A DNA stretch of 64,000 nucleotides, taken from Panorpa germanica (taxonomy: Eukaryota; Arthropoda; Insecta; Mecoptera; Panorpidae). This document shows, in pieces, positions 2,890 to 54,000 of the stretch (its first letter is position 1; each line of letters starts with the position of its first letter). A program made the translations under genes and the position numbers. Under the pieces are notes generated by a model. The model made no database searches. It was given only the letters and a program-made list of their open reading frames with translations, and was not told where the DNA came from. The stretch is from the NCBI GenBank assembly GCA_963678705.1, contig OY783214.1:12896001-12960000 (forward strand), in the 5' to 3' direction.

Positions 2890-3600
2890 TTTTTCGATAA
2901 TTTACAAGAAATTGAACAGTAGTTAAAGTATGACGTTATTAAAGTACTGCGTCATTTATATGGCATCAATTTGGCCAAAAACAATACAAAGGACAACACT
3001 TGTGTGTTTCTTTCAACCATCTACAGTAAATTTGAACAGTAGTGAATCTATGACGGTATTAAAAGAACTGTGTCACTCTTATGGCATCAACTTGCGCAAA
3101 TGCGATACAAAGCATAACACTTGTATGTTTCTTTAAACAATCTACAATAAATTTGAACAGTATTACAGTATTTGACGGCATTAAAACAACTGTGTCACTC
3201 TTGTGGCATATAATTGTGCAAATATGGCAGAAAAAACACAGTTGTGTGTTTCTTTTAATAATTTACAACAAATTTGAACAGTAGCAAAACTATGACGTCA
3301 TTGAAAGAACTGTGTCACTCTTATTGCATCAATTTGTGCTAATACGACATAAAGGACAACACTTGTGTGTTTCTTTCAATCATATACAGTTAATTTGAAC
3401 AGTAGTCAATCTATGACGTCATTAAAGTACTGTGTCACTTCTATGACATCTAATTGTGCAAATATGACAGAAAGAATAACAGTTGTCTGTTCCTCTGAAC
3501 AATTTACAACAAATTTGAACAGTAGTGAACTTATGACGTCATTAAAATATTACGTCGCTAATATTACATCAATTTGTACGGTTGTGACAAATGCGTCAAA
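2890..3600. repeat. Satellite-like tandem array, ~121-bp unit, about six copies
   Basis: The anchor TATGACG (or TTTGACG) recurs at 2929, 3049, 3171, 3291, 3412 and 3532, a period of 120-122 bp. Each unit also carries TTTGAACAGTA, ACTGTGTCAC, TGGCATC (or TGACATC) and TTGTGTGTTTCTTT in the same order. Copies differ by roughly 10-25%, so the array is not freshly expanded. Three units contain the full palindrome TGACGTCA. Short open frames run through the array but are by-products of the repeat and show no conserved protein. Confidence 0.85.
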
Positions 3601-20690: not shown

Positions 20691-21491
20691 TTAAGATTGT
20701 TAGCTTATCTTAGCTCTCGGTAATGCAGTGCAGTGCAGTATAAGGGTTCTAACAGGAAGTAAATTCTTGAATAATTAACAGTAATAATATTTATTCCATT
20801 GAAATTTACAAAAATCGGAAAATATAAAAATATTGCGCCTTGACTTTTGAGCAAATACTCCAGGTTTGTAATATTCCATTCCATTATTTTAATTATTGGG
20901 GTAGTTCCACTGGACTATACATATTATAACCTAAAATTCTTTTTAAATACCAACTAATAAAATATAAACAATAATCATAACATGACGTCAGAGTGTGCCT
21001 CTCACTCTTTGTAACTGACTATCGAGTTCTAGATAATAGTTATTTCAAAACCTCATGGGTCCGATGAGGTATTCGGTGGTCTGGTCTGTAGTCTCTTGTC
21101 AGACCGGTAAACAATTTAGAAAGCAGATAGCCGTAGCTTGCTTGTTGTCCACAGCCTATCTAACTGCTAGCGCCTAAGAGGTCGTCAACCAGCTGAGTAA
21201 AGTCTTTTTCATTCATGGTTCCAAACATAATTTACAATACCTCACCGATAGTTGTCCACAATGACCGCACGACTAGAGACCATGGTAGGCAGGGGAGTAA
21301 CATCAATGTTAAGTGATCGGCGATAGTTGAATAGTTGAATTATATTAGATTCCAGAGATGCAAAACCTTTTTAATGTATCACAGAATAAGTTTATAAAAT
21401 ATAGAGCATGAACCATCGCACAAATGGTATAGTTTTGTTTGTGAAAAAGACTGACATTTTAAAAACAATGTATCGTCAAAATTCAGGCTTC

Positions 21492-21734
21492 TGGGGCCCT
21501 ATTCCTGAGTCTTACGAACAACGATCGTGATCGAACAGATATGATTTATATGAGTAAAATATTTTACGAATAACTTTTAAAAGAGTATTTCTGAACTATA
21601 ATAATAATTAATAATAAAGTTCAGGAATAGTACAGAAATAATCTTTTAAAAGTGATTCGTAAAATGTTTCACTCATGTAAATCAGATCTGTTCGATCACG
21701 ATCATTGCTCGCAAGACTCAGGAATATTGGCCCA
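21492..21734. mobile_element. Palindromic foldback / MITE-like element
   Basis: The two halves are inverted copies of each other over roughly 100 bp per arm. The left arm reads GGGCCCTATTCCTGAG ... CGATCGTGATCGAACAGAT ... ACTTTTAAAAG ... CTGAACT. The right arm gives the complement in reverse order, ending CTCAGGAATATTGGCCCA. Only a short AT-rich loop separates them. Mismatches between arms show it is not brand new. A transcript would fold into a long hairpin. No coding is present. Confidence 0.75.
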
Positions 21735-21829
21735 GTTTACCTAATTTAGTTATTACTTGTATAAATTTACAACATTACATAAACTTATTAGACAACGATG
21801 AAATACATATAGTAAAAGAGTAACAGAAT

Positions 21830-22716: not shown

Positions 22717-22720
22717 ATAA

Positions 22721-23470
22721 TGTTGTAAGTACGCATATGTCGCACTTACCTTTTATTTTTAATGATATTAAATGTTAATTATGTAATAGAATTATATTAT
22801 GTAAACAGTTTTTGTATTAGTATTAAGATTGTAAAGAATAATTATTTAAGTTTAGCGCTTATAAATATTGTCTCTGGTTTGTGGAGATTAATATTGATTT
22901 AATGCTGGTAATTCAGTATTGGCGTTCTGTGATGTGAAATAAATTATTATATATTAAATTGCACAAGACGCTGAAAGCCAGTCTTCTCCTGAGTCTCAAA
23001 GCAAGCATTACTATTCGCAACTTCGTACGTATTGAATAGTGAGCACATTTCAACTATTAATTAAATTATAACACTATAGAATTACATTTTGTTTTATATC
23101 TGTCATCTTCGTTAATCTAATAAAATACTATTGTAATTAAGTAAGCAGATATAATATTACAACGAATAAATGATATATTTTAATAAAAGTGTTTGTATTA
23201 ATAGTAATAAAAAGATACTAATTGTTCAACCGTCGCATGTCGCAACGAGGTTACTTTAGACCGCTCAAGTATTCTCTAATTGCAACAATACACCGTCTGA
23301 ACAAGAATCCTTATTAATCATCTTAAGAAAGATATTCGATTACTACTGTAATTGGTGTTGGAAGTCGTCAACTGAAGAATCTACTACCAGAAGCTAGCAT
23401 CCCTGCAGAATGTACTAGTAAGCTGAGTAATCTCCTCCAGAACGACAATACGACACACCATTTTACAACA
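22721..23470 (+). repeat. 5' LTR of element A
   Basis: Begins TGTTGTAA and ends TTACAACA, perfect inverted ends. By eye it matches the 3' LTR at every position. A TATA-like run near 22946-22957 is followed about 30 bp later by CAGTCTTCTCC (from 22979), a plausible start site shared with B. Two AATAAA signals lie at 23165 and 23182. The first bases form an imperfect palindrome (GTAAGTACGCATATGTCG then CACTTAC). Confidence 0.95.
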
Positions 23471-23471
23471 T

Positions 23472-23530
23472 TGGTGTCAGGTGTAACATCCGCCCTCGAA
23501 TCTTATTTACAACATTGGTGTCAGGTGGGG
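23472..23530 (+). promoter_or_regulatory. Duplicated primer-binding site of element A
   Basis: One base after the LTR comes TGGTGTCAGG (from 23472). The same TGGTGTCAGG recurs at 23516, this time followed by TGGGGTCTCG and preceded by another TTTACAACA like the LTR end. The repeat period is 44 bp. TGGTGTCAG is complementary to the 3' end expected for insect or animal tRNA-Leu (…CTGACACCA), so tRNA-Leu priming is inferred. The LTR boundary shows the first copy primed the copy that made this insertion. Confidence 0.7.
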
Positions 23531-23960
23531 TCTCGAAGAGATATTCCTACACATAAATATCCAAGAGGTACGCCCAAAATTTTTTTCTATATATTCTACA
23601 CCTGGATGCAGATCAATTATTCTGGATACCACTACGTCGATCGATTATTTCCAAGATTGCCGAAGAGTACGAGATAGAACGTCAATTCATCTGTATTTCA
23701 CATAATTTTTTCTACAAGTCCGGTGGATGTAAAACAACAGCCCGCTGAACCAGAAAAAAAAAGAAATCTTTTGCCCCCAGCGAATGGATGGATGCTTCTA
23801 GAACAAATGGAATAATCTAAACTGATGTTAATCGTTTCCAGAACCCTGCACACAGCTGTACATAGATCAAAATCGAAAGTTTTTTTGTTAAGTATAATAA
23901 GACAGTATCTTTTTATCTTGTATACAATTATTATCATAAATTGATAATTGTATTTTTTTC

Positions 23961-24290
23961 TATTAGTAGCATCCTTGTAGTTCATTGAAGCTATTATTTT
24001 TTTAGTATTATATTCAATACTTTTGAATATTTGCTATAACCTATCTATTAGTAGCATCCTTGTAATTCATTGAAGCTATTATTTTTTTAGTATTATATTC
24101 AATACTTTTGAATATTTGCTATAACCTATCTATTAGTAGCATCCTTGTAATTCATTGAAGCTATTATTTTTTAGTATTATATTCAATACTTTTGAATATT
24201 TGTTATAAAATAACAATTTTGTAGCATCATTGTTCAATATTTTTAGTATTATATCCAATACTTTTGAATATCTACTATAATATTTCCTAT
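23961..24290 (+). repeat. Leader tandem repeat of element A, 85-bp unit
   Basis: Units beginning TATTAGTAGCATCCTTGTA start at 23961, 24046 and 24131, followed by a fourth, diverged unit to about 24290. Each unit contains ATTCAATACTTTTGAAT (ATCCAATACTTTTGAAT in the last), able to form a small stem-loop. The array sits in the untranslated leader upstream of gag. Element B has an equivalent diverged array. Confidence 0.85.
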
Positions 24291-24585
24291 AATTGTTTCT
24301 ACAATTATATTAATTCATGTTTAATATTTTTAGAACATCTTTATGAACGAGAAAGAATTTTGAAAAGGAGAAGTAAAGAGCTGAAGCAGTTAGATAGCAG
24401 TCTGTTCAATCAGAGAGACTACCTTCCTGTTACAACTGCGGTGTCTGAGCCCCATCGGAAATTTCCAGTGAGTTACTGTTTTCGCTAACAATTTTTCCTT
24501 GTCAGAATCCTATTTTTCGGAGAGTCGTTTATTGGTACAAAATAATCTTTAGTCTGTATATTATATATAACTTTAATTAAGTACT

Positions 24586-27500
24586 ATGGCACCGAACGTT
24601 CATTCACTCACACTAGTTGAGAATACAATCAATCTAATTAATGAGTTTTCAAAAAATCTAGAAGTCCAATCAACATCCTTAACAATAGTTGAATTAAAAA
24701 TCAAAAACTTAGACAAAGCTTGGGTTAAATATAGTAGTATCGTAGAAGCATTGCTTCCAACTCTAAAAAATGAAGAAGCTTCGGCTATCGTTAGTAAGTC
24801 TATGGAAGTTGAAAGTATTTATGACGACACTCTTATTTACTTGTTGAATTATAAGCAAACATTTGAGAATGATACACATATTGTAGACGACTCAAAAAGT
24901 ATAGATTCAATAAAAAATCTGAACTTAAGTCCAATGCAACTAACCGTTTTTGATGGAGAATATATTAATTGGCAAAGTTTTATGGAATTATTTACAAATT
25001 TAATTCGTAATAATAGTAAACTATCAAGCATTGAAAAAATGCATTATTTAAAGTTAAATTTGTCAGGAGAACCACTCAAACTCATAAAGAATTATCCTTT
25101 AACAAATGATAATTACGAAATTGTTTGGAACATCCTTTGTAAACGTTATGATAACAAGGTAGCACTTATTGAAACCTGTTTAAACAATTTAATAAACTAC
25201 AATGTTATACGTTTAGAGTCCGAAATCAATATCAAAAAACTACTAGATGAAATTAATGAATCGATTAGAGCATTAACCGAATTGGGGATATATTCTAATC
25301 ATTCAGATTTTATGTTAATACATATTTTAAAGACCAAATTAGATTTTAATTCGTCAAAGGAATGGGAAAACAGAAATAATTCTGAATTACCAACCTTAAA
25401 TGAATTTACAGAGTTTCTGGAGAGACGGTGGCGCAATCTAGAAAGAAGAAGGCATATTAAAGTCAAAACATATCCAAGCGTTCCTAATTCTAATAGTAAA
25501 CCAGTTTCAAGCAAGCAAATTCCTAATAAGGTCGAAACAAAAACTAAAAATTTGTTCTGTAACCATTGTAAGAAAAGTGGTCATACAGAAAAGTATTGTT
25601 TTATTAAGAAGGAAAATCTAGATACGGGTAACCCTATTGCTCAAGTTAATACTTGTAGGGAGGCCACAATTTTATCAGAACCTTCTACTTGTTGTGAAAG
25701 ATCGAAACATCTTATATCTGATGGTTCTCAAGTATCTTTTACTAACAAGACACAACACAATTCAAATAATGAATTATGTTTTTTTTATGATTTTGATGAG
25801 ATCAATACGGGTAATTTACAAAATAATAATGATATTCTAAGTTTTGACAGTAAAAATAAAAATGTTAAGGCTAAGCAAACAGTTGACACTATCCAATTCA
25901 AGATGGTCGCAGCCAAAGCTAAAACCGTATCATTTTTATTAGATACTGGTTCTCAAATCTCCTTGATTAAACAAAATATTTTAAATAACAATGTCAGAAT
26001 TAATAATAAATCTAAAATTCTATTGAAGGGTATTTCTGAAGGCACGCCTTATACCTTAGGTTCACTGAAAACTTCTATAATTTTAGATAGTAATAAGTCG
26101 AAACAAACTTTACAGGTTGTGTCAGAAAATTTCCCCATTAAACACGATGGAATTATAGGGTTAGATATTTTACGGAAACTAAATGCAGTAATTAATCTAA
26201 AAATGAACAGTGTACAATTCTCAGAATGTGGCAAAGTAATTGAGCTCCCACTTATAAATATAAACAATATCGTTTTACCAGCACGTACGAGGAAGATAAT
26301 TCCTATGTCAGGTTCTACAGTAGGAGTTTGTGTAGCCAGGGAATTGTTACCTGAAGTTTTTTTAGCTAATGCATTAATCAAGCCCGTCAAAAATATTTTC
26401 TATATTTCAATAATAAATTCTTCAATAAAAAATATAATACTTAGTAATTTCAAACCGAATATCATACCGATAGATCAATTTAGTATTTACCATTTTTCAA
26501 AATCAAGTCCTAACAACCGTAAGGAACTTTTATTAAACAATTTAAATCTTTCACATGTCAATTCAGAATTAGTAACAGAATTAATAGAAATCTGTGACAG
26601 CTTTAATGACATATTTTTTTTACCGGGAGACAAGTTATCTTGTACGAGCGCATTAAGTCATAAGATAAAGATTAATTCTTCTAAACCCGTTAACGTTAAA
26701 CCGTATCGATTGCCCCATGCGCAAAAAGAGATTGTGGAAAAGCATATTCAGGAACTGTTGGTCAACAACATAATTGAAGAAAGCGACTCACCCTATAACG
26801 CACCTTTATTAGTAGTACCAAAAAAACCAGATGCGTTAGGTAATAAACAATTCCGCGTAGTAGTCGATTTCCGTAAACTTAACGAGCAGACAACAAGTGA
26901 CGCCTATCCTTTGCCTCTTATACATGATATACTGGACCAACTTAGTGGTGCAAAATTTTTCTCTACCCTTGACTTAGCAAGCGGTTTTCACCAGGTCCCT
27001 ATGCTTCCCGAAGATAAAGAGAAAACAGCATTTAGTGCGAACTTTAAACACTATCAATTTGTAAGAATGCCATTCGGACTTAAAGGAGCCCCCCCCATGT
27101 TTCAGAGACTTATGTCTCACGTTCTCACAGGTTTGCAAGGAATAGATTGCTTAATCTATCTGGACGATGTAGTCATTTTTGGAAAAAACATTTCTGAGCA
27201 CAACCAAAGATTAAAAAACGTTTTTTCTAAATTACGGGAACATAATTTGAAGCTCCAACCATCCAAATGTAACTTTCTACATAAAGATTTGATTTATTTA
27301 GGTCACGTTATTAATGAAACAGGTATTCTACCAGATCCTTCTAAAGTAGAAGCAATAAAGAATTTCCCCATTCCAAACAGTCCTAAACAAATTAAAACAT
27401 TTTTGGGTATGTCTGGTTATTATCGCCGACATATACCGCATTACGCAGAGATAGCCAAACCACTATATAATGCAGCAAACAGTAATGTTAAAGTATTAGA

Positions 27501-28642
27501 ATGGTCAGACCAATGCGACGAATCATTTAAAACTTTAAAAAATAAATTAACCATATCACCTGTTTTGCAATACCCGGACTTTAGTAAAAATTTCGTTGTA
27601 ACCACGGATGCAAGTAAATATGCTATAGGTGCAGTCCTTTCACAAGGTACTATTAAGGAAAGCCACCCAATAGCATATGCTTCAAGAACTCTAAATAAGG
27701 CACAACAAAATTACACAACTACTGAACGTGAGTTATTAGCAGTAGTATGGGCTGTGGCTCATTTTAGACCCTATCTCTATGGAAAGTTTTTTAGTATCGT
27801 AACAGACCATCAAGCCTTGACTTGGTTAATGAGTATTAAGGACCCGAGTTCTAGACTTATGCGTTGGCGGATAAAACTAGAGGAATATAATTACGAAGTA
27901 ATATATAGACCAGGTAGTTCGATTCCACACGTAGATGCCCTAAGTCGCGTATACTCACTTCAGGTTGAAACAATGGATGTCACATACGAAAATTATTTAG
28001 AAATAATTAAAAATAAAATTATCATAAACAATAAAGTAATTGAACATGATAAAAGTTTATATGACGCACCGACGTCATTTTCATTAGTAGATTTTGTATC
28101 AAAAGATTTTAAAAATTCAATTGGAAATTCTCCTGAATTAATCAATAAATTTAGTAGTATCAATGCATTTCTAATACAAGAAAAAGAAGTATCAGAAATT
28201 GCATATGTTGAAATTGATACTAGATTTATTATCTGTTTAATAATTAAGGAATTTCATTTTAATCTACCAAATTATAAAGAAATATTTTTGGCATTAGTGA
28301 ATCTGAAAAACTTTTGTACTTTACACAAAATTACTAACATAGCTATGAACAGGTTCGAGTCTGAACTAAGTAAATTAGATTTTGCCCAGTTACGAACTAT
28401 GATCAGACATATCTTTGATAAAACAAATATAATAGTACACATTTATAATGACAATATACTTAAAATTAGTGACCCTGAGTTAATAAACAATGTAATTTCG
28501 GAATTTCATGTTAATCCCACAGCAGGCCACTTAGGAGTTTCTAAAACAATTAAACGATTAAAATCACACTTTAAATTTCCAAGTATGATTAGAAAAGTTA
28601 AAAATTTTATTAGACAATGTGTATCATGTCAAAAGAATAAAG
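24586..28642 (+). CDS. Element A Gag-Pol polyprotein, 5' part (Gag, protease, RT, RNase H, integrase zinc finger)
   Basis: A single frame opens at ATG 24586 and runs ~1352 codons until element B interrupts it. The N-terminal Gag contains a DUF1759-like region (about residues 112-260: LTVFDGEYINWQSF, MHYLKLNLSGEPLKLI). It is followed by a CX2CX4HX4C zinc knuckle (C325-C338), an aspartic protease with LLDTGSQ (D453), and a reverse transcriptase starting near residue 705 with YLDD at 858-861. RNase H has TDAS (D1008), ERELLAVV near 1047-1053 and TDHQAL (D1074). The integrase HHCC finger is at H1308, H1315, C1345, C1348. RT motifs are of Ty3/gypsy type. Gag and Pol share one frame with no frameshift. 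The three codons plus stop after 28642 come from the B LTR. Confidence 0.93.
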
Positions 28643-29462
28643 TGTTGTAAGTACGCATAAGTCGTACTTATCCTTCCTATTTTTAATATAAATGTTATTT
28701 ATTTTATAAGAATTATATTATGTTATCTTTAATTTTAGTATTAATATTGTAATAAATAATTATTTGTATTTAGCGCTTGTAAACATTGACTCTGGTCTGT
28801 GGAGATTTTATATTGTTTTAATGCTGGTAACTCAGTATTGGCACATTGTGATGTGAAATAAATCATTATATATTAATCTGCACGCTAGTCAGAAAGTCAG
28901 TCTTCTCCTGAGTCTCAACCAAGTGTTTACTAATTGTACTTCGTTCGTACAATACTCCAATTGTAACATCTAAGTATTCAATAGTGAGCACATTTTAACT
29001 ATTAATCAAATTATAACACTAGAATTACATTTTGTTTTATATCTGGCATCTTTATTAATCCAATAAAATACTATTGTAATTAAGTACGTAGATATAATAT
29101 TACAACGAATAAATGATATATTTTAATAAAAGTGTTTGTATTAATAGTATTTAAAAGATACTAATTGTTCAACCGTCGTATGTCGCAACGAGGTTACTTT
29201 AGACCGCTCAAGTATTCTCTAATTGCAACAATACACCGTCCTAACAATAATCCTGTTATTCATCTTAAAGAAACTTAATTCTTATCAACGTGAGTAATTC
29301 AAGAAGGTGGATGATCGTCAACTGAAGAGTCTACTTCCAGAAACTAGCATCCCTGCGGAATGTATTAGCAAGCTGAGTAATCTCCTAATAGAACGAGCAT
29401 CAGACCTCTTTTTACAACATTGATGTCAGGTGTAACATCCGCCTTCGAATATACTTACAACA
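28643..29462 (+). repeat. 5' LTR of element B
   Basis: About 820 bp, TGTTGTAA...TTACAACA. It is homologous to the A LTR through position 29419, then continues 43 bp through a former primer-site copy (here TTGATGTCAGG, with A where A-element has G) to a second TTACAACA end. The TATATATTAA block, CAGTCTTCTCC and AATAAA signals of A are all conserved. Confidence 0.88.
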
Positions 29463-29464
29463 AA

Positions 29465-29484
29465 TGGTGTCAGGTGGGGTCTCG
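29465..29484 (+). promoter_or_regulatory. Primer-binding site of element B
   Basis: TGGTGTCAGGTGGGGTCTCG begins two bases after the LTR end and equals the second primer-site copy of element A. tRNA-Leu is the inferred primer. Confidence 0.7.
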
Positions 29485-29919
29485 AAGAGATATTCCTACA
29501 CATAAATATCCAAGAGGTACGCCCAAAAAAATTTTTTTTCTATATATTCTACACCTGGATGCGAATCAATTAAATCTGGATACCACTACGCCGATCGATT
29601 ATTTCCAAAATTGCTGAAAAGTACGAGCTAGAACGTCATTTCATCTGTATTTCACATAATTTTCTACAAGTCCGGCGGATGCAAAATTACAGCCCGCTGA
29701 ACCTGGAAAAAGAAATCTTTTGCCGCCACGGGAATGGATGGATGCTTCTAGAACACTTGGAATAATCTAAATCGATGTTGGTCGCGTCCAGAGCCCTGCA
29801 CACAGCTGTTTATAGATCATAATCACTGATAAGAAAATCTTTAAGTATAATAGAACGGTATCTTTTTTTTTTTGTATATAATTATTACTATAAATTGATA
29901 ATTGTATTTTTTTTATATA

Positions 29920-30235
29920 GCAACGTTATTAATGAAGCTATCATTTTTTTTAGTATTATATTCAGTACTTTTGAATATTTGCTATAATCCAAGTATTTTT
30001 TATTAGCATCATTATTAACGTGGTTATAATTTTTTTTAGTATTATATTCAGTACTTTTGAATATTTGCTATAACCTAACTTTTTTTTGTAGCATCATTGT
30101 TTGTCATTGAAGCTATTAATTTTTTTAGTATTATATTCCAATACTTTTGAATATTTACTATAATATTTTTTTTTATAATTGTTTCCACAATTATACTAAT
30201 TGATGTTTAATATTTTTTTTAGAACAACATTTTTT
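29920..30235 (+). repeat. Leader repeat of element B (diverged, ~80-bp unit)
   Basis: The motif TAGTATTATATTC(A/C)(A/G)TACTTTTGAATATTT-like recurs three times (near 29952, 30034 and 30126), each followed by (G/A)CTATAA and a GTAGCATC- or AGCATC-type block. It corresponds in position and content to the 85-bp array of element A but with more divergence between units. Confidence 0.75.
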
Positions 30236-30477
30236 TGAACGAGAGGGAATTTTGAAAAGGAGAAGTAAAGAGCTGAAGCAGTTAGATAGCAGTCTGTTCA
30301 ATCAGAGAGACTACCTTCCTGTTACAACTGCGGTGTCTGAGCCCCATCGGAAATTTCCTGTGAGTTACTGTTTTCGCTAACAATTTTTCCTTGTCAGAAT
30401 CCTATTTTTCGGAGAGTCGTTTATTGGTACAAAATAATCTTTAGTCTGTATATTATATATAACTTTAATTAAGTACT

Positions 30478-32556
30478 ATGGCACCGAACGTTCATTCACT
30501 CACACTAGTTGAGAATACAATCAATCTAATTAATGAGTTTTCAAAAAATCTAGAAGTCCAATCAACATCCTTAACAATAGTTGAATTAAAAATCAAAAAC
30601 TTAGACAAAGCTTGGGTTAAATATAGTAGTATCGTAGAAGCACTGCTTCCAATTCTAAAAAATGAAGAAGCTACGGCTATCGTTAGTAAGTCTATGGAAG
30701 TTGAAAGTATTTATGACGACACTCTTATTTACTTGTTGAATTATAAGCAAACAATTGAGAATGATACACATATTGTAGACGACTCAAAAAGCATAGATTC
30801 AATAAAAAATCTGAACTTAAGTCCAATGCAACTAACCGTTTTTGATGGAGAATATACTAATTGGCAAAGTTTCATGGAATTATTTACAAATTTAATTCGT
30901 AATAATAGCAAACTATCAAACATTGAAAAAATGCATTATTTAAAATTAAATTTGACAGGAGAACCACTCAAACTCATAAAGAATTATCCTTTAACAAACG
31001 ATAATTATGAAATTGTTTGGAACATCCTTTGTAAACGTTATGATAACAAGGTAGCACTTATTGAAACCTATTTAAACAATTTGATAAACTACAATGTTAT
31101 ACGTTTAGAATCAGAAACTAATATCAAAAATTTTTTAGACGAAATTAATGAATCGATTAGAGCATTAACCGAGTTGGGAATATATTCTAATCATTCAGAT
31201 TTTATTTTTATACATTTTTTAAAGACCAAGTTAGATTTTAACACATTAAAGGAATGGGAAAACAGAAATACTTCTGAATTACCAACCCTAAATGATTTTA
31301 CGAATTTTCTTGAAACACGGTGGCGCACTCTAGAAAGAAGAAGGCATGTTGAATTTAAAACAGATTCAAGTCATTCTATTTCTAGTAGTGAACCAGTTTC
31401 AAGTGAACAATTTGCTAACGAAGTCGAAACAAAATTTAAAACTTTTTTTTGTAACTATTGTAAAAAAAATGGTCATTTAGAGAAATATTGTTTTATCAAG
31501 AAGGAAAATGCGGATACGGTATATCCTGTCGCGCAAATTAATATTTGTAGGAGAGATACGGTATTTTCAAAACCTTCTGTTTATTGTAAAAGATCGAGAC
31601 ATCTTGAATCTGATGGTCCTCAAGTATCTTTTACTAAAAATACAAAACAAAATTCACGTTCTTTTTATAATCACCATTTACGTAAATTTAATAGTTTAAA
31701 TAAAAATATTGAGATTAAAGAAATACAAAATACCAATGATATAACAAATTTTAACTGTAACAATGAAAATGTTATTGACAAGCAAACAGCTGACACTGTT
31801 CAATTCAGAATAGTCGCAGCCAAAGCAAAGACTGTATCATTTTTATTGGACACTGGTTCTCAAATTTCTTTAATTAAACAAAATATTTTAAAAAATAATA
31901 TCAAAATAGATAGTACATCTAAAGTGTTATTAAAGGGAATCTCTGAAGGCACGCCTTATACTTTAGGTTCACTAAAAACTTCTATAATTTTAGATAGTTC
32001 TAGGTCGAAACATACTTTTCAGGTTGTGTCAAAGGATTTCCCCATTAAACACGATGGAATTATAGGATTAGATATTTTACGTACATTTAAAGCAGTAATT
32101 AATTTGGAAACAAACAGCGTACAATTCTCACAACATGGCAAAATATTTGAATTCCCATTATTGAACATAAACAGTATTATCATAGTTCCAGCACGTACTA
32201 GGAAATTAATTCCTATGTCGGGTTCTACGGTAGGAGTTTGTGTAGCCAAGGAATTGCTACCTGAAGTTTTTTTAGCCAACGCATTAATTAATCCTGTTAA
32301 TAATACTTTTTATATATCAATAACTAATTCCTCAGCAAAAGATGTAATACTTGACAATTTTAAACCAGATATTATTCCAATAAATAAATTTAATTTTTAC
32401 CATTTTTTGAAAAGAAATCCTAACGATCCTAAAAGATCCTTACGACATCTTTTATTTAATAATATAGATTTTTCAAATGTTAATTCAAAATACTTAACAG
32501 ATTTAATGGAAATCTGTAATAATTTTAATAACATATTTTTTTTTCCCGGTAGATAA
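30478..32556 (+). CDS. Element B Gag-protease frame (692 codons)
   Basis: The start codon and surroundings match element A exactly (MAPNVHSLTL). Residues 1-210 differ from A at fewer than ten positions. Divergence then rises sharply through the rest. The frame retains the DUF1759-like Gag, the zinc knuckle (CNYCKKNGHLEKYC) and the protease motif LLDTGSQ. It stops at TAA 32554-32556 because of a one-base shift relative to A just after the FFFP codons, so the protein ends before RT. A Gag-PR protein could still be made. Confidence 0.85.
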   Translation: MAPNVHSLTLVENTINLINEFSKNLEVQSTSLTIVELKIKNLDKAWVKYSSIVEALLPILKNEEATAIVSKSMEVESIYDDTLIYLLNYKQTIENDTHIVDDSKSIDSIKNLNLSPMQLTVFDGEYTNWQSFMELFTNLIRNNSKLSNIEKMHYLKLNLTGEPLKLIKNYPLTNDNYEIVWNILCKRYDNKVALIETYLNNLINYNVIRLESETNIKNFLDEINESIRALTELGIYSNHSDFIFIHFLKTKLDFNTLKEWENRNTSELPTLNDFTNFLETRWRTLERRRHVEFKTDSSHSISSSEPVSSEQFANEVETKFKTFFCNYCKKNGHLEKYCFIKKENADTVYPVAQINICRRDTVFSKPSVYCKRSRHLESDGPQVSFTKNTKQNSRSFYNHHLRKFNSLNKNIEIKEIQNTNDITNFNCNNENVIDKQTADTVQFRIVAAKAKTVSFLLDTGSQISLIKQNILKNNIKIDSTSKVLLKGISEGTPYTLGSLKTSIILDSSRSKHTFQVVSKDFPIKHDGIIGLDILRTFKAVINLETNSVQFSQHGKIFEFPLLNINSIIIVPARTRKLIPMSGSTVGVCVAKELLPEVFLANALINPVNNTFYISITNSSAKDVILDNFKPDIIPINKFNFYHFLKRNPNDPKRSLRHLLFNNIDFSNVNSKYLTDLMEICNNFNNIFFFPGR

Positions 32557-32993
32557 GTTATCTTGTGCGAGTGCACTGAGTAACTCACCTAACCCTGTAA
32601 ACATTAAGCCGCATAGATTATCTCATGCGCATAAAGAAATTGTTGAGAAGCATATTCAAGAACTGTTGGCTAACAACATTATTGAAAAATGCGACTCACA
32701 GTTTAACGCACCTCTGTTAATGGTACCTAAAAAAGCAGATGTGTCGGGGAACAAACAATTTTGCGTTGTAATCGACTATCGTAAACTTAATGAACAGACG
32801 ACAAGTGATGTTTATACTTTGCCTCTCGTACATGACATACTAGACCAATTTAGTGGTGCAGAATATTCTTCTACGATTGATTTAGTTACAAATAAATTTA
32901 CTAGTAATAAACCAAAATTTAAATTAAATTTTGATAGAAGGGTCAATTCTTTTTTTCACCTAGAAAGTATACGGTAGTTAATAGGAATAGATT
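32557..32993 (+). pseudogene. Element B pol remnant (RT N-terminus joined to integrase C-terminal tail)
   Basis: After the frameshift, sequence homologous to the RT N-terminal region continues (KEIVEKHIQELL, APLLMVPKK, VVIDYRKLNEQTTSD). At about 32885 it jumps to sequence homologous to the integrase C-terminal region. A second gap removes most of that tail before CGGTAGTTAATAGG. The RT catalytic YLDD, all of RNase H and the integrase catalytic core are gone. A further ~21 bp is missing near 32585. Clearly non-functional. Confidence 0.85.
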
Positions 32994-33293
32994 GAAGAGA
33001 TTTTGTACCAATGAACAAAACCTTGACGTGTTAGATGGATTTTGTCAGGGATGATTGTTTTGTGGAGCAGTGTTAACTCTATACGATGGGATCAGAATCG
33101 TTGTCGACACTTTGCTTCTCTTTTTGTTTTTTTTCCAGAATTGTAACTCGTATATTTTGTTTTTATACGTGTCCCTTTTTTTTTGGAAGGGGGTGTTGCG
33201 ATAGTACGACATCGTCCTATCTTCCTTTTTCTTTTTCTTGGAAAGAAACGCATATGTTTGTTTAATATGCGTTCCTTTTTTAGGGTTGAAGGG
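32994..33293 (+). other. Element B 3' non-coding region with hairpin and purine tract
   Basis: Nearly identical to A's 3' region between GGATTTTGTCAGGGATGATTG and the pyrimidine runs. AACGCATAT (33247-33255) and ATATGCGTT (33265-33273) form a 9-bp stem. The tract AGGGTTGAAGGG (33282-33293) directly before the LTR is the likely plus-strand primer. Confidence 0.7.
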
Positions 33294-34115
33294 TGTTGTA
33301 AGTACGCATAAGTCGTACTTATCCTTCCTATTTTTAATATAAATGTTATTTATTTTATAAGAATTATATTATGTTATCTTTAATTTTAGTATTAATATTG
33401 TAATAAATAATTATTTGTATTTAGCGCTTGTAAACATTGACTCTGGTCTGTGGAGATTTTATATTGTTTTAATGCTGGTAACTCAGTATTGGCACATTGT
33501 GATGTGAAATAAATCATTATATATTAATCTGCACGCTAGTCAGAAAGTCAGTCTTCTCCTGAGTCTCAACCAAGTGTTTACTAATTGTACTTCGTTCGTA
33601 CAATACTCCAATTGTAACATCTAAGTATTCAATAGTGAGCACATTTTAACTATTAATCAAATTATAACACTAGAATTACATTTTGTTTTATATCTGGCAT
33701 CTTTATTAATCCAATAAAATACTATTGTAATTAAGTACGTAGATATAATATTACAACGAATAAATGATATATTTTAATAAAAGTGTTTGTATTAATAGTA
33801 TTTAAAAGATACTAATTGTTCAACCGTCGTATGTCGCAACGAGGTTACTTTAGACCGCTCAAGTATTCTCTAATTGCAACAATACACCGTCCTAACAATA
33901 ATCCTGTTATTCATCTTAAAGAAACTTAATTCTTATCAACGTGAGTAATTCAAGAAGGTGGATGATCGTCAAACTGAAGAATCTACTTCCAGAAACTAGC
34001 AACACTGCGTGATGTATTAGCAAGCTGAGTAATCTCCTTTTAGAACGACAATCCGACCTCTTTTTACAACATTGATGTCAGGTGTAACATCCGCCCTCGA
34101 ATCTTACTCACAACA
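33294..34115 (+). repeat. 3' LTR of element B
   Basis: About 822 bp. The first ~670 bp match the 5' LTR of B without a difference that I can see. The last ~150 bp differ from it at about a dozen to fifteen sites (for example GCATCCCTGCGG versus GCAACACTGCGT). It contains the mutated first primer-site copy and ends CACAACA. Confidence 0.88.
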
Positions 34116-35012
34116 AAAGTGTGCAAATTAAATAAATGCCCATTAACAATTACATCGACTTCGAAACATAGTTTCGAAAGGTTGGCTTTGGACATAGTAT
34201 ATCTTCCCAAGAAAGACGACAACGACAAATACAAATACTTACTAACAATACAGGATGACCTTACTAAATTTACGGAAGCTATTCCTATTATAAACCAGGA
34301 GGCAAATACTGTCGCGAAAGCATTAGTAACTAACGTTATTTGTAGGTACGGAGTTCCTAATATGATCTTAACAGACCAAGGAACAAACTTCATGTCAAAA
34401 ATTTTTAAAGATATATGCAAATTGTTAAAAATTAAACAATTAAAAACAACAGCATTTAGACCAGCAACCAACGGTGCCTTAGAAAGAGTTCATAGAACCC
34501 TTGCCGAGTATCTAAGGAATTTTTGTAAAAAGCAGGATGATTGGATAAATTGGATTCCCTATGCAATGTTCGTGTATAACACAACTCCGCATACAGCGAC
34601 CGGTTTTACTCCTTTCGAACTAATTTATGGACATAAGGCAAATCTGCCTTCAATTTTTTATAAAGAACCAATTGAGGTAAATACTTATAATAATTTTATA
34701 GTAGAACTCAAACACAGGTTACAAGTAGCGAGGGAACTTGCTATAAATAACTTGGTTAAAAGCAAAGAAAAAACAAAATTATATTTTGATAAAAGGGTCA
34801 ATTCTCTTTTCACACCTGAAGTAAACGAACTAGTTTTATTAAGAAATGAACAGTTACCAACTAAAGGACAGTCAAAAAAACTTTTACCCTTATACGTAGG
34901 ACCGTATAAAGTTACTAAAATTATATCCCCTGTTAATACAGAAATACTAATTGGTAAAAAACATACGGTAGTTCATAATAATAGGTTGAAGAGATTTTGT
35001 ACCAATGAATAA
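34116..35012 (+). CDS. Element A Pol, 3' part (integrase core and C-terminus)
   Basis: Continuation of the A polyprotein after the B insertion. It starts in the same frame at the second AAAG copy and ends at TAA 35010-35012. The integrase catalytic triad is visible as D in LALDIV (34191), D in LTDQGTNF (34374) and E in ALERVH (34482). The second D and the E are 35 residues apart, the DD35E spacing of retroviral-type integrases. Toward the C-terminus LPLYVGPYKV is a GPY/F-type motif. No chromodomain or env follows. By itself this piece has no proper start. Confidence 0.92.
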   Translation, partial: KVCKLNKCPLTITSTSKHSFERLALDIVYLPKKDDNDKYKYLLTIQDDLTKFTEAIPIINQEANTVAKALVTNVICRYGVPNMILTDQGTNFMSKIFKDICKLLKIKQLKTTAFRPATNGALERVHRTLAEYLRNFCKKQDDWINWIPYAMFVYNTTPHTATGFTPFELIYGHKANLPSIFYKEPIEVNTYNNFIVELKHRLQVARELAINNLVKSKEKTKLYFDKRVNSLFTPEVNELVLLRNEQLPTKGQSKKLLPLYVGPYKVTKIISPVNTEILIGKKHTVVHNNRLKRFCTNE

Positions 35013-35297
35013 AAACTTGACGAATGAAATGGATTTTGTCAGGGATGATTGTTTTGTGGAGCAGTGTTAACTCTATACGATGGGATCAGAATCGTTGTCG
35101 ACACTTTGCTTCTCTTTTTGTTTTTTTCTAGAATTGTAACTCGTATATTTTGTTTTTATACGTGTCCCTTTTTTTTTGAAAGGGGGTGTTGTGATATGTA
35201 CGACATCTCCCCTATCACAATTTTTCCTTTTTCTTTTCCTTAGAGCAGAAACGCATATGTTTTGTTTTATATGCGTTCCTTTTCTTTGGTTGAGGAG
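35013..35297 (+). other. Element A 3' non-coding region with hairpins and purine tract
   Basis: Contains TTGTGATA...TATCACAA (about 35185-35220), and the stem AACGCATAT (35250-35258) / ATATGCGTT (35269-35277) also found in B. GGTTGAGGAG directly before the 3' LTR is the likely polypurine tract. The 64-codon open frame here is not conserved in B as a protein and is not called. Confidence 0.65.
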
Positions 35298-36047
35298 TGT
35301 TGTAAGTACGCATATGTCGCACTTACCTTTTATTTTTAATGATATTAAATGTTAATTATGTAATAGAATTATATTATGTAAACAGTTTTTGTATTAGTAT
35401 TAAGATTGTAAAGAATAATTATTTAAGTTTAGCGCTTATAAATATTGTCTCTGGTTTGTGGAGATTAATATTGATTTAATGCTGGTAATTCAGTATTGGC
35501 GTTCTGTGATGTGAAATAAATTATTATATATTAAATTGCACAAGACGCTGAAAGCCAGTCTTCTCCTGAGTCTCAAAGCAAGCATTACTATTCGCAACTT
35601 CGTACGTATTGAATAGTGAGCACATTTCAACTATTAATTAAATTATAACACTATAGAATTACATTTTGTTTTATATCTGTCATCTTCGTTAATCTAATAA
35701 AATACTATTGTAATTAAGTAAGCAGATATAATATTACAACGAATAAATGATATATTTTAATAAAAGTGTTTGTATTAATAGTAATAAAAAGATACTAATT
35801 GTTCAACCGTCGCATGTCGCAACGAGGTTACTTTAGACCGCTCAAGTATTCTCTAATTGCAACAATACACCGTCTGAACAAGAATCCTTATTAATCATCT
35901 TAAGAAAGATATTCGATTACTACTGTAATTGGTGTTGGAAGTCGTCAACTGAAGAATCTACTACCAGAAGCTAGCATCCCTGCAGAATGTACTAGTAAGC
36001 TGAGTAATCTCCTCCAGAACGACAATACGACACACCATTTTACAACA
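35298..36047 (+). repeat. 3' LTR of element A
   Basis: 750 bp, from TGTTGTAA to TTACAACA. I found no mismatch with 22721-23470. It ends at the point where the first primer-site copy begins in the 5' copy, which fixes the boundary. The following ATAA (36048-36051) is the target duplication. Confidence 0.95.
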
Positions 36048-36288
36048 ATAATTACAAATCTACAATTGCTGGTTTGTTCGAATTGTTCGTGATTCTGAAT
36101 TTGCGCTATGGTTTTTATAGAGTTACAAATTATTTACTGTTCAATATCTATCAATACCCAAAGCTCATTGTTTGGTGTGGAATTTCTAATATAGATATTC
36201 TCGGAAAGAAAGTTGTCGCACTAAAATTTCAATAGTTCAAACGACTTCAGTTTTATTCATTTATGACATTACTATCACAAAGCTTGTT

Positions 36289-36450
36289 TTTTTTTACATA
36301 TAGTTTCTCGAGATTCCTAGGCACGTAGCCTTTTATCGCCCCTAATATTGTTCTGCTTCTTATTATACTTTATATTCAGACAACAAGAATGATCTATTTA
36401 TGGCTACTGCTGTTATAGATTTCGGTTTCTCAATCAAAAAGGCGGTGTTA
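36289..36450 (-). mobile_element. Retroposon (SINE or LINE tail), copy 1
   Basis: On the minus strand a 162-bp body ends in a poly-A tail (plus-strand T run). It is flanked by the perfect 13-bp duplication CACAAAGCTTGTT (36276-36288 and 36451-36463). The 3' body contains GGCTACGTGCCTAGGAATC and GAGAAACTATATG. No tRNA-type promoter boxes are obvious. Confidence 0.85.
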
Positions 36451-37476
36451 CACAAAGCTTGTTGCTTTTGTAGTGTTGAATCCTTTTTTATTATTATCTA
36501 TCTATATTATTCTTATTTTAGTTTTACTTTTCGAAAGTTATTTTATATTTATACTACTTTACAGTAATGTCATAAATACTATTTTAAAATACTTACAAAG
36601 TAGTTGACCAGTAAAGTCAAATTTATACCTGCTTTGCACATATTTTAATTGATTTGGGACCATCAAGTTTAGGGCATATTTATCAGTTTGAAACCAGTAC
36701 CTTCAGAAGTTTAAGTAAACAATATTAGCAGGGTATGATTACGGTTATTTAAAAATACCTGGGAATTTTTATTATTAGACTGGTGTGTTTATAAAACATG
36801 AACTGTAAATTGTCTTTATCTACAACGTGATATTTCGTTGTTGAGCAGAGTGAAGAGAAGAGTGGTATTCATATACTACCATATGTTTAAATGTATTGGT
36901 GGTTGGCTCATCGGCTCATGGCTTAGTAGGAGGTGGTTGGTTCACGTTCTCCATCAGCATAGCAGCATAGCAGCATAGGAGCAGAAGCTCGGCGCTATTG
37001 TGACAGCTCGGTCGACAAATCACTACATTCTAGATGTAGAGTCTACACACTGTAGAAAACTCGACTGCCATCGTTATTCAATGAAATAGAGGGCGCTGAG
37101 TGTGGACCCATTCTTTAGTTGACAATACAAAAAAGAGTATGAGCACATAGAGAGATGGAATAGGGGATTCTCTGTTCGAAGAAAAATGCGTGAGATTGAG
37201 ACTTTTTTTTATAAAAACATTTCTTGAAAGCGCAATGATTCTAAATCCTTTAAGTAGAGTACTTAATTAAAGAAAGATGTATTTCTAAAGTTGAGGAGGT
37301 TTTTGATAAGGTCAAAGGTTAATTAAAGGTATAGGAAGTAATAAACCGTGTGTGTTAAATATGTAATTAATGTCGGTCACTGAAAGAGTTGCCACCTTTT
37401 TAAAATCAGTCAGATTGACAAAAAAAATATTTGTGTTTTTATTTCTTTAAATTTACGAAATGTTATTTCCAATTCT

Positions 37477-37655
37477 TTTTTTTTATATATAGTTTCTCGG
37501 GCTTCCTAGGCACGTAGCCTTTTATCGCTCCTAATATTGTTCTGCTTCTTCTTATACTTTATATCCAGACAACAAGAACGATCTACTCATGGCTACTGCT
37601 GTTAAAAATTTCGGTTTTTCAATCAAAAAGGCGGTGTTAACAGGAAGCGTCTGCG
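37477..37655 (-). mobile_element. Retroposon (SINE or LINE tail), copy 2
   Basis: Same family as copy 1 with a slightly longer 5' end (adds CGCAGACGCTTCCTG on the minus strand). It is flanked by the perfect 13-bp duplication TATTTCCAATTCT (37464-37476 and 37656-37668), with an A-rich tail on the minus strand. Confidence 0.85.
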
Positions 37656-51000: not shown

Positions 51001-54000
51001 TCCGAGTTTAAGCCTGGCTTCAATACATTGTAGTACTTGTTGCAATGTGTAATCTTTTCTAACTTGCCGTTCGCCGTTGTACCGTTGTTAGTAAGTTTAC
51101 CTGTAATCACCAAGTAAAATTGTGCATTCATCTGTATAGATCCAACAGTTGATTAACAGTTTATGAAATTGATAACTACTTACAATGTATATCAGTGCTT
51201 CTGAAACATTTATTTATCGTTTATATTGAGTATAAAATATAAAGAAATTTAAATAATTCATGTATTATATAATGTAACATTTTTAACATATTATCAAATT
51301 TAATATAATTCTATTACATTTTCTGTAATTAAATGCAAAAGACATTTAAAGTTTTTCACTAATATATAAATTTAATATGTTACAATAGAAAATCTTGCAT
51401 AAATTAATGTGGAAAGATTGTTTTGTTTCGTAAATGGTATACGTAATACGTAACTGTATATAGCGGATACTCTTACTTGAACGGTATTTTTCCAATTAAA
51501 ATGCAATGCATTATTACCACACAAAATTCAGATTTTTCCATTGTTTTGAAAATTATCACACATTTGTTAATAATGGCGCCATCTATATGTCACTCTGCAA
51601 TTACGACTGCAATTTAATTTTGACTAAATTGTTAAGATAGCAGTCTTAAGCAAGTGAATTGCTTTTTATTATAAAAGGAAATAACCCGCTATCAACATTA
51701 AAAGATGTACAAAGTACATATGTATAAATTTAAAAAAATTTAAAAACTGTCTCTTTTTTTTTTTTTTGTTTAGCACACTGCATATATAGTTACTAATTTC
51801 TTAGATAATATTGTGACTAATAAAAAAGTAATTACACAGCTAAGTTCCTAATAGACAATTGTATCACTATAGAATACTATTTTATAGAAATTTTCACTAA
51901 CTGCAGAAAGCCAATGGTTTATCCGATTAACATTGCTTCGCGCGCAACAGTTTTATAGTCATAGTAACTGTACGTATTACATGCATGCGGTAGTGCTGCA
52001 GTTCAAACTAAAACCGTTCGGTTATGTTATTTATTTCAAAGGTAAGAAACTCTTTATTAACGGATTTAACTGTATGAATATATAGACATATTTATAGTAC
52101 ACAAATATATACATATAAAAGTACACGTCGTGATATAATTATAAAAGATATCTTTAGAATATAGTCACGCCTTTGAAAGATACGAAATATTTCATATCAA
52201 TAACTTCTAATCGTGTTACATGATCTTATATAAGATACTAATCAATGTAGGTTTCTATACTCTAAGGTTTGATTCTATGCTAATAAATTTTACATAACTT
52301 TATATTTTATTTTTTAAAGAATTTTTGCACATTCCCATCTCAATCCCACCAAATGTATTTCCCGAAGGTTAATGTAACTTGAAAGACACCGGTTTGTATC
52401 CTCGAAAAGATTCAAAAATATTGATTTTCAAGTATAATCATTTATTTAACGGATAAAAAATAAAAGTCAACGGTTTAGAAATTTGTATAATATTAAGAAA
52501 AGAAATATGTATGTGTGTCTATGTATAAAGTTCGAAAGGAATGTTATACTACGTTTGAGAATTAAAAAGTACAGTTCTATATGAAGTCAGTCTAGCTCTA
52601 GATTAATGGTGTGAGCAATAAAATAATTATAATAAGCAATATATCATATAATAATATGTACAAGTACATTTAAGTAAACATAACACACATTTTATATGGA
52701 TGCATGTGTTTGTATGTGTGTGTGTGTCGGTAAATGTCATGCCTGGTCGACGAATAGCGGTGCTTATGAACTGGAAGAATGTTACAGTCAGTCTTTGAAA
52801 GAGAGCCATCAAGAAAACGGATAATTTATTATAATATACCCGTACTTCATAGCGTAGTCTATCTAGGAGTAGAGTACATTTCAAATATATACCGCCGGTG
52901 TGTTCTTTCTTAACAAAACAAAGATCTAAGCTCTCACCAGATAGGATAGGATCGCCAGCTAGATGTACAGTCACTCACCTCAAACTTATAACAATCTCAT
53001 TGTTTTTAAAAGTCATTTTGTCTTTGTTAACAGTCAAGGTTTTGATCTAAAATTAAAATATAAGTTGAACTATAGCTATTAAAACATAATACTATTCTAA
53101 ACTATATCTAATTAGGAATAATGTGTCCAAGAAACTCAACAATGTTTCTTTTTTTTATATAATTTCTCGGGCTTCCTAGGCACGTAGCCTTTTATCGCCC
53201 CTAAAAATGTTCTGCTTTTTCTTATTCTTTATATCCCGACAACAAGAATGATCTATTGATGGCTACTGCTGTTATAAATCACAATGCTTCTTATGCCAGT
53301 TTCACACCAGAGAGACAGTTCAATAAAACACGAACAAAAACTTGTTTTCCTGAACAAAAACATCAATGTTTACACCAAAGAGACAGTTCTTAAAAAGTTT
53401 GTTTTTTGTTGCTGTTCTAGTAAACAAAACACATTCCCATCTAGACTCGGTAAGATCAAAGCTAAACACGTTTGTTGTTGGTTTTTAGTCTGCTCGGTTT
53501 GAACACGCAGTTTTGTTTTTTGTGAACATTTGCGCTTATCAGTTGTTATTTATCATGTTTATAATTTTTATGGGACACACAGAAAAACACTAAAAACAAA
53601 ACCAGTGTGAACAGTCTGTTTTCGAAAAACAGAACTGTTTTAAAATAAAATAAAACATGATTTTGTTTTGTTTTTTGACAACAAAACTGTCTCTCTGGTG
53701 TGAACAGTGAGATTTTTATAAATTTTTCTATTAATATTTCTGATTCAGTTCATAGTAGCAATAATTCATCATTGTTCACTGTCCCAACAATTAGGCTTCC
53801 CATAACCTGTTCAACTGTTTCCTGTCATTCTCTTCGTGATGTATTTTGATAAGCCATCGTAAAGCCACACGATTGATACCCACAAAATTGATTATAAGAC
53901 CTTATCAACGAAGCAATTGACATCCTGAATATAAATTAAATGTCTAAATTTATTTTTTACGTATTGTATAACAAAAGTAGTATTATATTAACAAAAAAGA

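Follow-up and report, generated by a model that had tools for sequence, protein, structure and literature searches.

Tandem candidate primer sites for tRNA-Leu(UAA) and two alternative LTR edges in a Ty3/Gypsy family of Panorpa germanica

The window analysed here is a stretch of 64,000 nucleotides from the genome of Panorpa germanica (contig OY783214.1, positions 12,896,001 to 12,960,000, forward strand). It holds two nested LTR retrotransposons: element A occupies positions 22721-36047 (without its target duplication ATAA), and element B (28643-34115) has been inserted within A's integrase (Table 1). A Pfam search with A in two pieces gave the order DUF1759, protease, RT, RNase H and integrase, where RVT_1, RT_RNaseH and Integrase_H2C2 lie upstream of the B insertion and rve lies downstream. 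This is the domain order of Ty3/Gypsy elements (Metaviridae), with RT and RNase H ahead of integrase in pol. Also as in Metaviridae, the LTRs are of the TG...CA type with a target duplication in the range of 4-6 bp (ATAA for A, AAAG for B, and a duplication in 28/28 readable two-site pairs from the genome), and a primer site complementary to a tRNA 3' end, here tRNA-Leu(UAA), follows the 5' LTR directly. In A's family this primer site behind the 5' LTR is accompanied by a purine tract ahead of the 3' LTR. The nearest proteins share 41-60% identity with the family over the matched part, the named ones being mostly from insects; a viral contig search gave no relatives beyond this genome.

Table 1. 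Features of elements A and B in the window
Element	Feature	Position	Strand	Source
A	Target duplication ATAA, left	22717..22720	+	
A	5' LTR, 750 bp, TGTTGTAA...TTACAACA, ends at site 1	22721..23470	+	
A	Site 1: TTACAACA, T, then 13 bases of tRNA-Leu(UAA) complement (TGGTGTCAGGTGT from 23472)	23463..23484	+	
A	44-bp unit separating the two sites; leader in A, U5 in long copies	23472..23515	+	
A	Site 2: TTACAACA, T, 12 tRNA-complement bases from 23516, more pairing past a 2-nt gap	23507..23527	+	
A	85-bp tandem repeats in the leader	23959..24208	+	
A	Gag-protease-RT-RNase H-integrase frame, start, interrupted by B (DUF1759, RVP, RVT_1, RT_RNaseH, Integrase_H2C2)	24577..28650	+	Pfam
B	Target duplication AAAG, left	28639..28642	+	
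B	5' LTR, 820 bp, ends at site 2	28643..29462	+	
B	Site 1, within the LTR, TGG changed to TGA	29412..29430	+	
B	Site 2, primer site at the LTR edge	29465..29476	+	
B	Gag-protease frame (DUF1759, RVP)	30469..32556	+	Pfam
B	3' LTR, 822 bp, ends at site 2; last ~145 bases a U5 haplotype unlike that of the 5' LTR	33294..34115	+	
B	Target duplication AAAG, right	34116..34119	+	
A	Integrase remainder downstream of B (rve core)	34116..35012	+	Pfam
A	3' LTR, same sequence as the 5' LTR, ends at the site-1 boundary	35298..36047	+	
A	Target duplication ATAA, right	36048..36051	+	

Elsewhere in the window, an inverted repeat lies at 21491-21735 (arms of 109 nt, 88% complementary, 27 nt between them), a 121-bp tandem repeat of 5.4 copies at 2892-3547, and a short dispersed repeat of ~90% identity at 36284-36454, 37473-37642 and 53146-53279. 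An open frame of 301 codons (60924-61829) has no Pfam match.

The two LTRs of A are identical at 750/750 bases. Both stop at the first of two copies of a primer-site sequence (site 1), with ATAA on both flanks. As noted in a preliminary description of this DNA, the sequence TGGTGTCAGG is doubled in A, where it occurs exactly at 23472 and 44 bp further at 23516; it is also found at 29465. Both LTRs of B cross site 1 and the spacer and stop at site 2, flanked by AAAG on both sides, and the first site of B is indeed mutated (TGATGTCAGG at 29421 and 34073). With at most one mismatch, six matches to the site sequence are present in the window, one of which (38917) is unrelated to A or B; in 100 shuffles the mean was 1.25 matches and six were never reached. 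The sequence TTACAACA precedes both site copies in A (at 23463 and 23507). At the second site of B, two bases (AA) and not one intervene between CA and TGG. The LTR termini TGTTGTAA...TTACAACA form an inverted pair, and the repeated unit thus carries an LTR end plus the start of a primer site.

No Pfam match to an RT or integrase domain was obtained in the frames of B, and the homology between A and B breaks off in pol and picks up again near the 3' end. B was therefore probably mobilised by proteins from other copies. The leader of B contains tandem repeats of 85-86 bp (29908-30164), as does that of A (23959-24208). The spacing of ~86 bp between the length classes of two-site copies suggests a change in copy number of the leader repeats. 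The LTRs of B are identical over their first 679 bases, and their 15 differences are confined to the final 145 of 822 aligned columns; such clustering after position 678 has a chance of 5e-12 under uniform placement. The two ends (29320-29462 and 33973-34115) are distinct natural U5 haplotypes. That of the 3' LTR was seen again in three loci (L117, L122, L128), that of the 5' LTR in no fetched locus. These mosaic LTRs are a sign of template exchange during the round that made B.

The tRNA-Leu 5' pattern has 19 matches in the 464 Mb genome, and five of the eight fetched tRNA-Leu loci were called tRNA-Leu(UAA) by ARAGORN. With CCA added, the complement of the 3' end of this tRNA starts with TGGTGTCAGGTGTGGGGT. 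It is fitted contiguously over 13 bases at site 1 of A and over 12 bases at site 2. The common site 2 is without two of the 18 bases, and pairing continues past this two-base gap. Some copies show a fit of 18/18 (L008; L040 at site 1), and only nine bases fit the tRNA-Leu genes L107 and L108. The calculated duplex energies are -24.0 kcal/mol for site 1, -33.4 for site 2, -42.5 for the 18-base site, -17.3 for site 1 of B and -4.5 for the matching stretch of a related lineage, C. Going by this pairing, tRNA-Leu(UAA) fits as the primer of both sites. The idea that site 2 is the sole strong site by virtue of a long tRNA match was dropped, as the tRNA gene shows the common site 2 to be missing two of the 18 bases. 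Separately, four copies with a long U5 (L004, L087, L099, L101) read ...TTATCAGAAGTAACG where site 1 would be. The stretch TCAGAAGT in these four also agrees with the complement of a different tRNA-Leu gene (TGGTGTCAGAAGTGGG; L107, L108). We give it as a lead that this stretch could be left over from a site for another tRNA-Leu.

A DNA search of the genome with the junction of A scored 40 of 1386 candidates, 30 of them as 5' loci (one being A itself). The expected 3' regions were taken for the other 29 loci and for 10 unfetched places; the latter (L072-L081) gave no usable pair and were left out. Of the 29 pairs of 5' and 3' ends, 28 were readable (the exception is L042/L071). The same four bases stand on both sides in 28/28, 18 pairs have the site-1 edge and 10 the site-2 edge, and the two LTRs differ nowhere in 25 pairs, at one base in two and at 48 in L035.

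Genome-wide, 40 places match the exact form in which site 1 is intact and the spacer is present. These are 19 matches in nine long full copies, 17 short full copies (A included), three long 3' LTRs with a purine tract ahead (L113-L115) and one match in another lineage (L112); one of the nine long copies has an internal duplicate of the site match. In the long copy L034 (C4:8399221 and 8399519) the U5 end with both sites is repeated 298 bp further into the leader. The 26 full copies of the intact form thus end at site 1 in 17 cases and at site 2 in nine, and both sites are observed as LTR edges with target duplications. Short LTRs measure 748-750 bp and long ones 44 bp more. The collection of family copies by boundary, which the preliminary description had called for and which was run in part, therefore gave both boundary classes; the boundary was not tied to loss of site 1.

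For comparison of haplotypes, 33 LTRs were tabulated (A, 17 short, nine long and six single-site; the mosaic LTR of L035 and the divergent LTR of L039 were left out). Only two columns are informative among them, and each of the resulting haplotypes CA, TA and TT is found with both edges. The spacer occurs as TTATTT or TTACTT, and three combinations of LTR and spacer have both edges: TA with TTATTT (two short, four long), CA with TTACTT (one, one) and TT with TTACTT (two, three). The presence of both edges on shared haplotypes means that the edge was flipped repeatedly, or was chosen afresh. As far as these sequences tell, the LTR edge is not a lineage trait in A's family. Two further copies have a changed site 1: L037 combines an A-type LTR and TGA at site 1 with a long end, and L041, with TGA and a second change there, is short.

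The reading that we favour, and consider likely, is that this is a young Ty3/Gypsy family, some of whose copies have two tRNA-Leu(UAA) primer sites 44 bp apart, both usable, so that the choice of boundary would be facultative and recurrent. The site at which strong-stop cDNA starts would set the end of U5. Because TTACAACA, the end sequence that integrase needs, stands ahead of each site, both products could integrate, giving short or long LTRs. In the B lineage, site 1 is changed at the third primer base, and site 2 seems to have become the settled boundary. The spacer is probably lost at the second strand transfer, when the short plus-strand strong-stop DNA anneals to site 2 rather than site 1. 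In two accounts of retroviral reverse transcription (PMC3185550, PMC3187697), the primer site fits the last 18 bases of the tRNA, the plus-strand DNA takes over part of the tRNA sequence and anneals to the minus-strand primer site, and template switching can delete direct repeats.

An imprint of this kind is found at site 1. In the usual two-site copies, site 1 reads TGGTGTCAGGTGTAACAT followed by CCGCC. At four places genome-wide it reads TGGTGTCAGGTGTGGGGT followed by CCGCC, that is, the exact 18-base tRNA complement with the spacer resuming unchanged at the next base. The one that was read (L040) has a short 3' LTR, and no partner match lies near any of the four. The exact 18-nt imprint is what copying of primer bases into plus-strand DNA at site 1 would leave. 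Read in this way, it shows that site 1 was used at the second transfer; as evidence of tRNA priming at site 1 of that RNA it is indirect and no proof. Three findings speak against priming at both sites. L041 ends at site 1 despite two changes there relative to the tRNA. The energies favour site 2, yet short ends are commoner (17 to 9, or 17 to 12 with the three additional 3' LTRs). The third is a hybrid copy (C7:8340513 to ~8348350, ATAT on both sides), whose 5' end is single-site, carries marker T and has a primer site of 18 bases, and whose 3' LTR is long and carries marker A.

A does not represent the state ancestral to B: in A's own lineage the commonest form is single-site and lacks the spacer (137 exact matches), and lineages C and E share a related U5 tail. 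Spacer-like tails stand behind site 1 in A, B and E; they occur in C too, where the stretch corresponding to site 1 is eroded. Single-site copies are known with A-, B- and E-like U5 (L002, L086, L088). We read the two-site form as the old one, with single-site copies generated repeatedly by strand transfer to the wrong site; the reverse order is possible. The marker T (LTR position 738) was tried as a test of site-1 priming and gave no separation, since it is present in single-site copies too. With L035 and L039 left out, it is carried by six single-site copies, 2/17 short and 3/9 long two-site copies (Fisher, short against single-site p 0.20, long against single-site p 0.01, the copies being non-independent).

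The alternative against which that marker was set is donation of ends. Two-site RNAs would be primed at site 2 alone. A single-site RNA packaged with them would supply the strong-stop DNA for the short ends, and this DNA would anneal to site 1 of the two-site template at the second transfer. Donors would be at hand, as single-site copies of A's lineage are more numerous (137 + 6 exact junctions against 26 full two-site copies), and L041 is easily accounted for. Ends are also exchanged. The C7 hybrid implies that a 3' boundary need not derive from the RNA that supplied the leader, and in the two-site copy L035 (C3:40882; 3' part L064) the 5' LTR is B-like in columns 270-382, the 3' LTR is of A type and the target duplication CTAC is intact. 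Together with the mosaic LTRs of B, these copies indicate that templates were exchanged near the ends, which keeps donation alive. On the other hand, each of the 17 short copies would require a mixed particle. The LTR allele of A (CACACC) occurs genome-wide only in A's own two LTRs (two matches) and thus has no known single-site donor, though an error in that very round could have produced it. Site 1 would, moreover, still serve as primer site at the second transfer. We regard donation as possible, if somewhat doubtful.

The preliminary description had proposed instead that a mutation of site 1 in the ancestor of B forced priming at site 2 and so shifted the boundary. The form with TGA at site 1 and the spacer (AACATCC) is numerous, with 579 matches. 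Among the 100 of these that were listed, there are 39 same-strand pairs 3.9-7.0 kb apart, in which both LTRs pass site 1; a pair can be recognised only when site 1 is present in both LTRs, so that pairs are long by definition and the sample is biased. The same 100 matches include 22 singles: 16 were fetched and 16/16 end at site 2, two are leaders (L089, L090) for which 3' ends were sought and none found, and four lay outside the check. At least 29 matches of the B-form site 1 stand on one strand at C2:8974768-9205631, many ~4.71 kb apart. They form an array of B-like elements, perhaps amplified in tandem, within which the pairing is arbitrary.

The description had named copies of the B type ending at the first site as evidence against its proposal. 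One such case lies outside the B lineage: in L041, site 1 is damaged (TGATGTCAGATG) and the 3' LTR nevertheless stops there. Within the B lineage, the U5 is followed by a non-T base at 15 places, all of which were read; seven have a primer-site-like sequence next and eight resemble LTR ends at site 1. A leader was seen for one of these eight, a single-site one 4.6 kb away on the same strand. In the copies resolved, the TGA form goes with the long edge, with possible exceptions, and site 2 appears to be where the boundary of the B lineage has settled. Comparison of the intact with the TGA form of site 1 (short/long) by Fisher tests gave p 1.7e-9 for 17/9 against 0/39 and p 1e-5 for 17/12 against 8/55, which is not proof, as the B pairs are long by ascertainment and the copies are related.

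The TGA copies that pass site 1 would fit a forced move, as would lineage C, with its long U5 and eroded stretch. What holds of the boundary-shift reading is that there are two real boundaries, each with a target duplication and each adjoining sequence that matches tRNA-Leu(UAA). However, in nine full copies site 1 is intact and the LTR already stops at site 2, and these copies share LTR and spacer haplotypes with short ones, so loss of site 1 is unnecessary for a boundary move and is refuted as its necessary cause. As the boundary flips on shared haplotypes, a mutation can fix a boundary already in use and need not cause the move; we therefore think a forced move unlikely. Gene conversion or unequal exchange between LTRs after insertion, which the conversion-tract-like confinement of B's LTR differences to the last 145 columns might recall, is highly improbable as the source of short and long 3' ends, because 28/28 pairs have matching 4-bp target duplications right at the short or long end, 25/28 are without any LTR difference, and conversion does not set a new LTR end against a target duplication.

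If both sites are used, as we favour, the reading may be extended, more tentatively, to a natural toggle. Each round would set the edge at either site and could drop the 44-bp U5 module, so that single-site, short and long two-site copies would be phases of one cycle. The B lineage, with its point mutation in site 1, and lineage C, in which the corresponding stretch is eroded, would then show how a moved boundary becomes fixed. Were this true, sister copies in one genome would record steps in the evolution of an LTR boundary.

LTR edges are treated as fixed family marks when elements are found, dated and classified. Here the 3' edge differs between copies with nearly identical LTRs, and the cause appears legible: two sites, one tRNA and an integrase-ready end at each. 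Short and long LTR variants are thus not necessarily separate subfamilies. The natural copies make primer choice, template exchange at the ends and the lengthening or shortening of U5 testable. Searches of the open-licence literature listed no paper on a natural element that combines two primer sites with two LTR edges, a weak negative, as most subscription journals lie outside it and 'PBS' is ambiguous.

In laboratory retroviral constructs with two primer sites, both sites on one RNA compete for the tRNA. The present family differs from these constructs in being natural, in its many copies and in having an LTR end ahead of each site. It resembles other insect Ty3/Gypsy elements (Metaviridae) in the order of gag (DUF1759), protease, RT, RNase H and integrase, in its TG...CA LTRs and in its 4-bp target duplication, and is unlike them in that part of its copies have tandem primer sites and two alternative LTR ends. 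Standard retroviruses, as portrayed in PMC3185550 and PMC3187697, have a single primer site and a fixed U5 edge, whereas in the present family the edge varies among sister copies.
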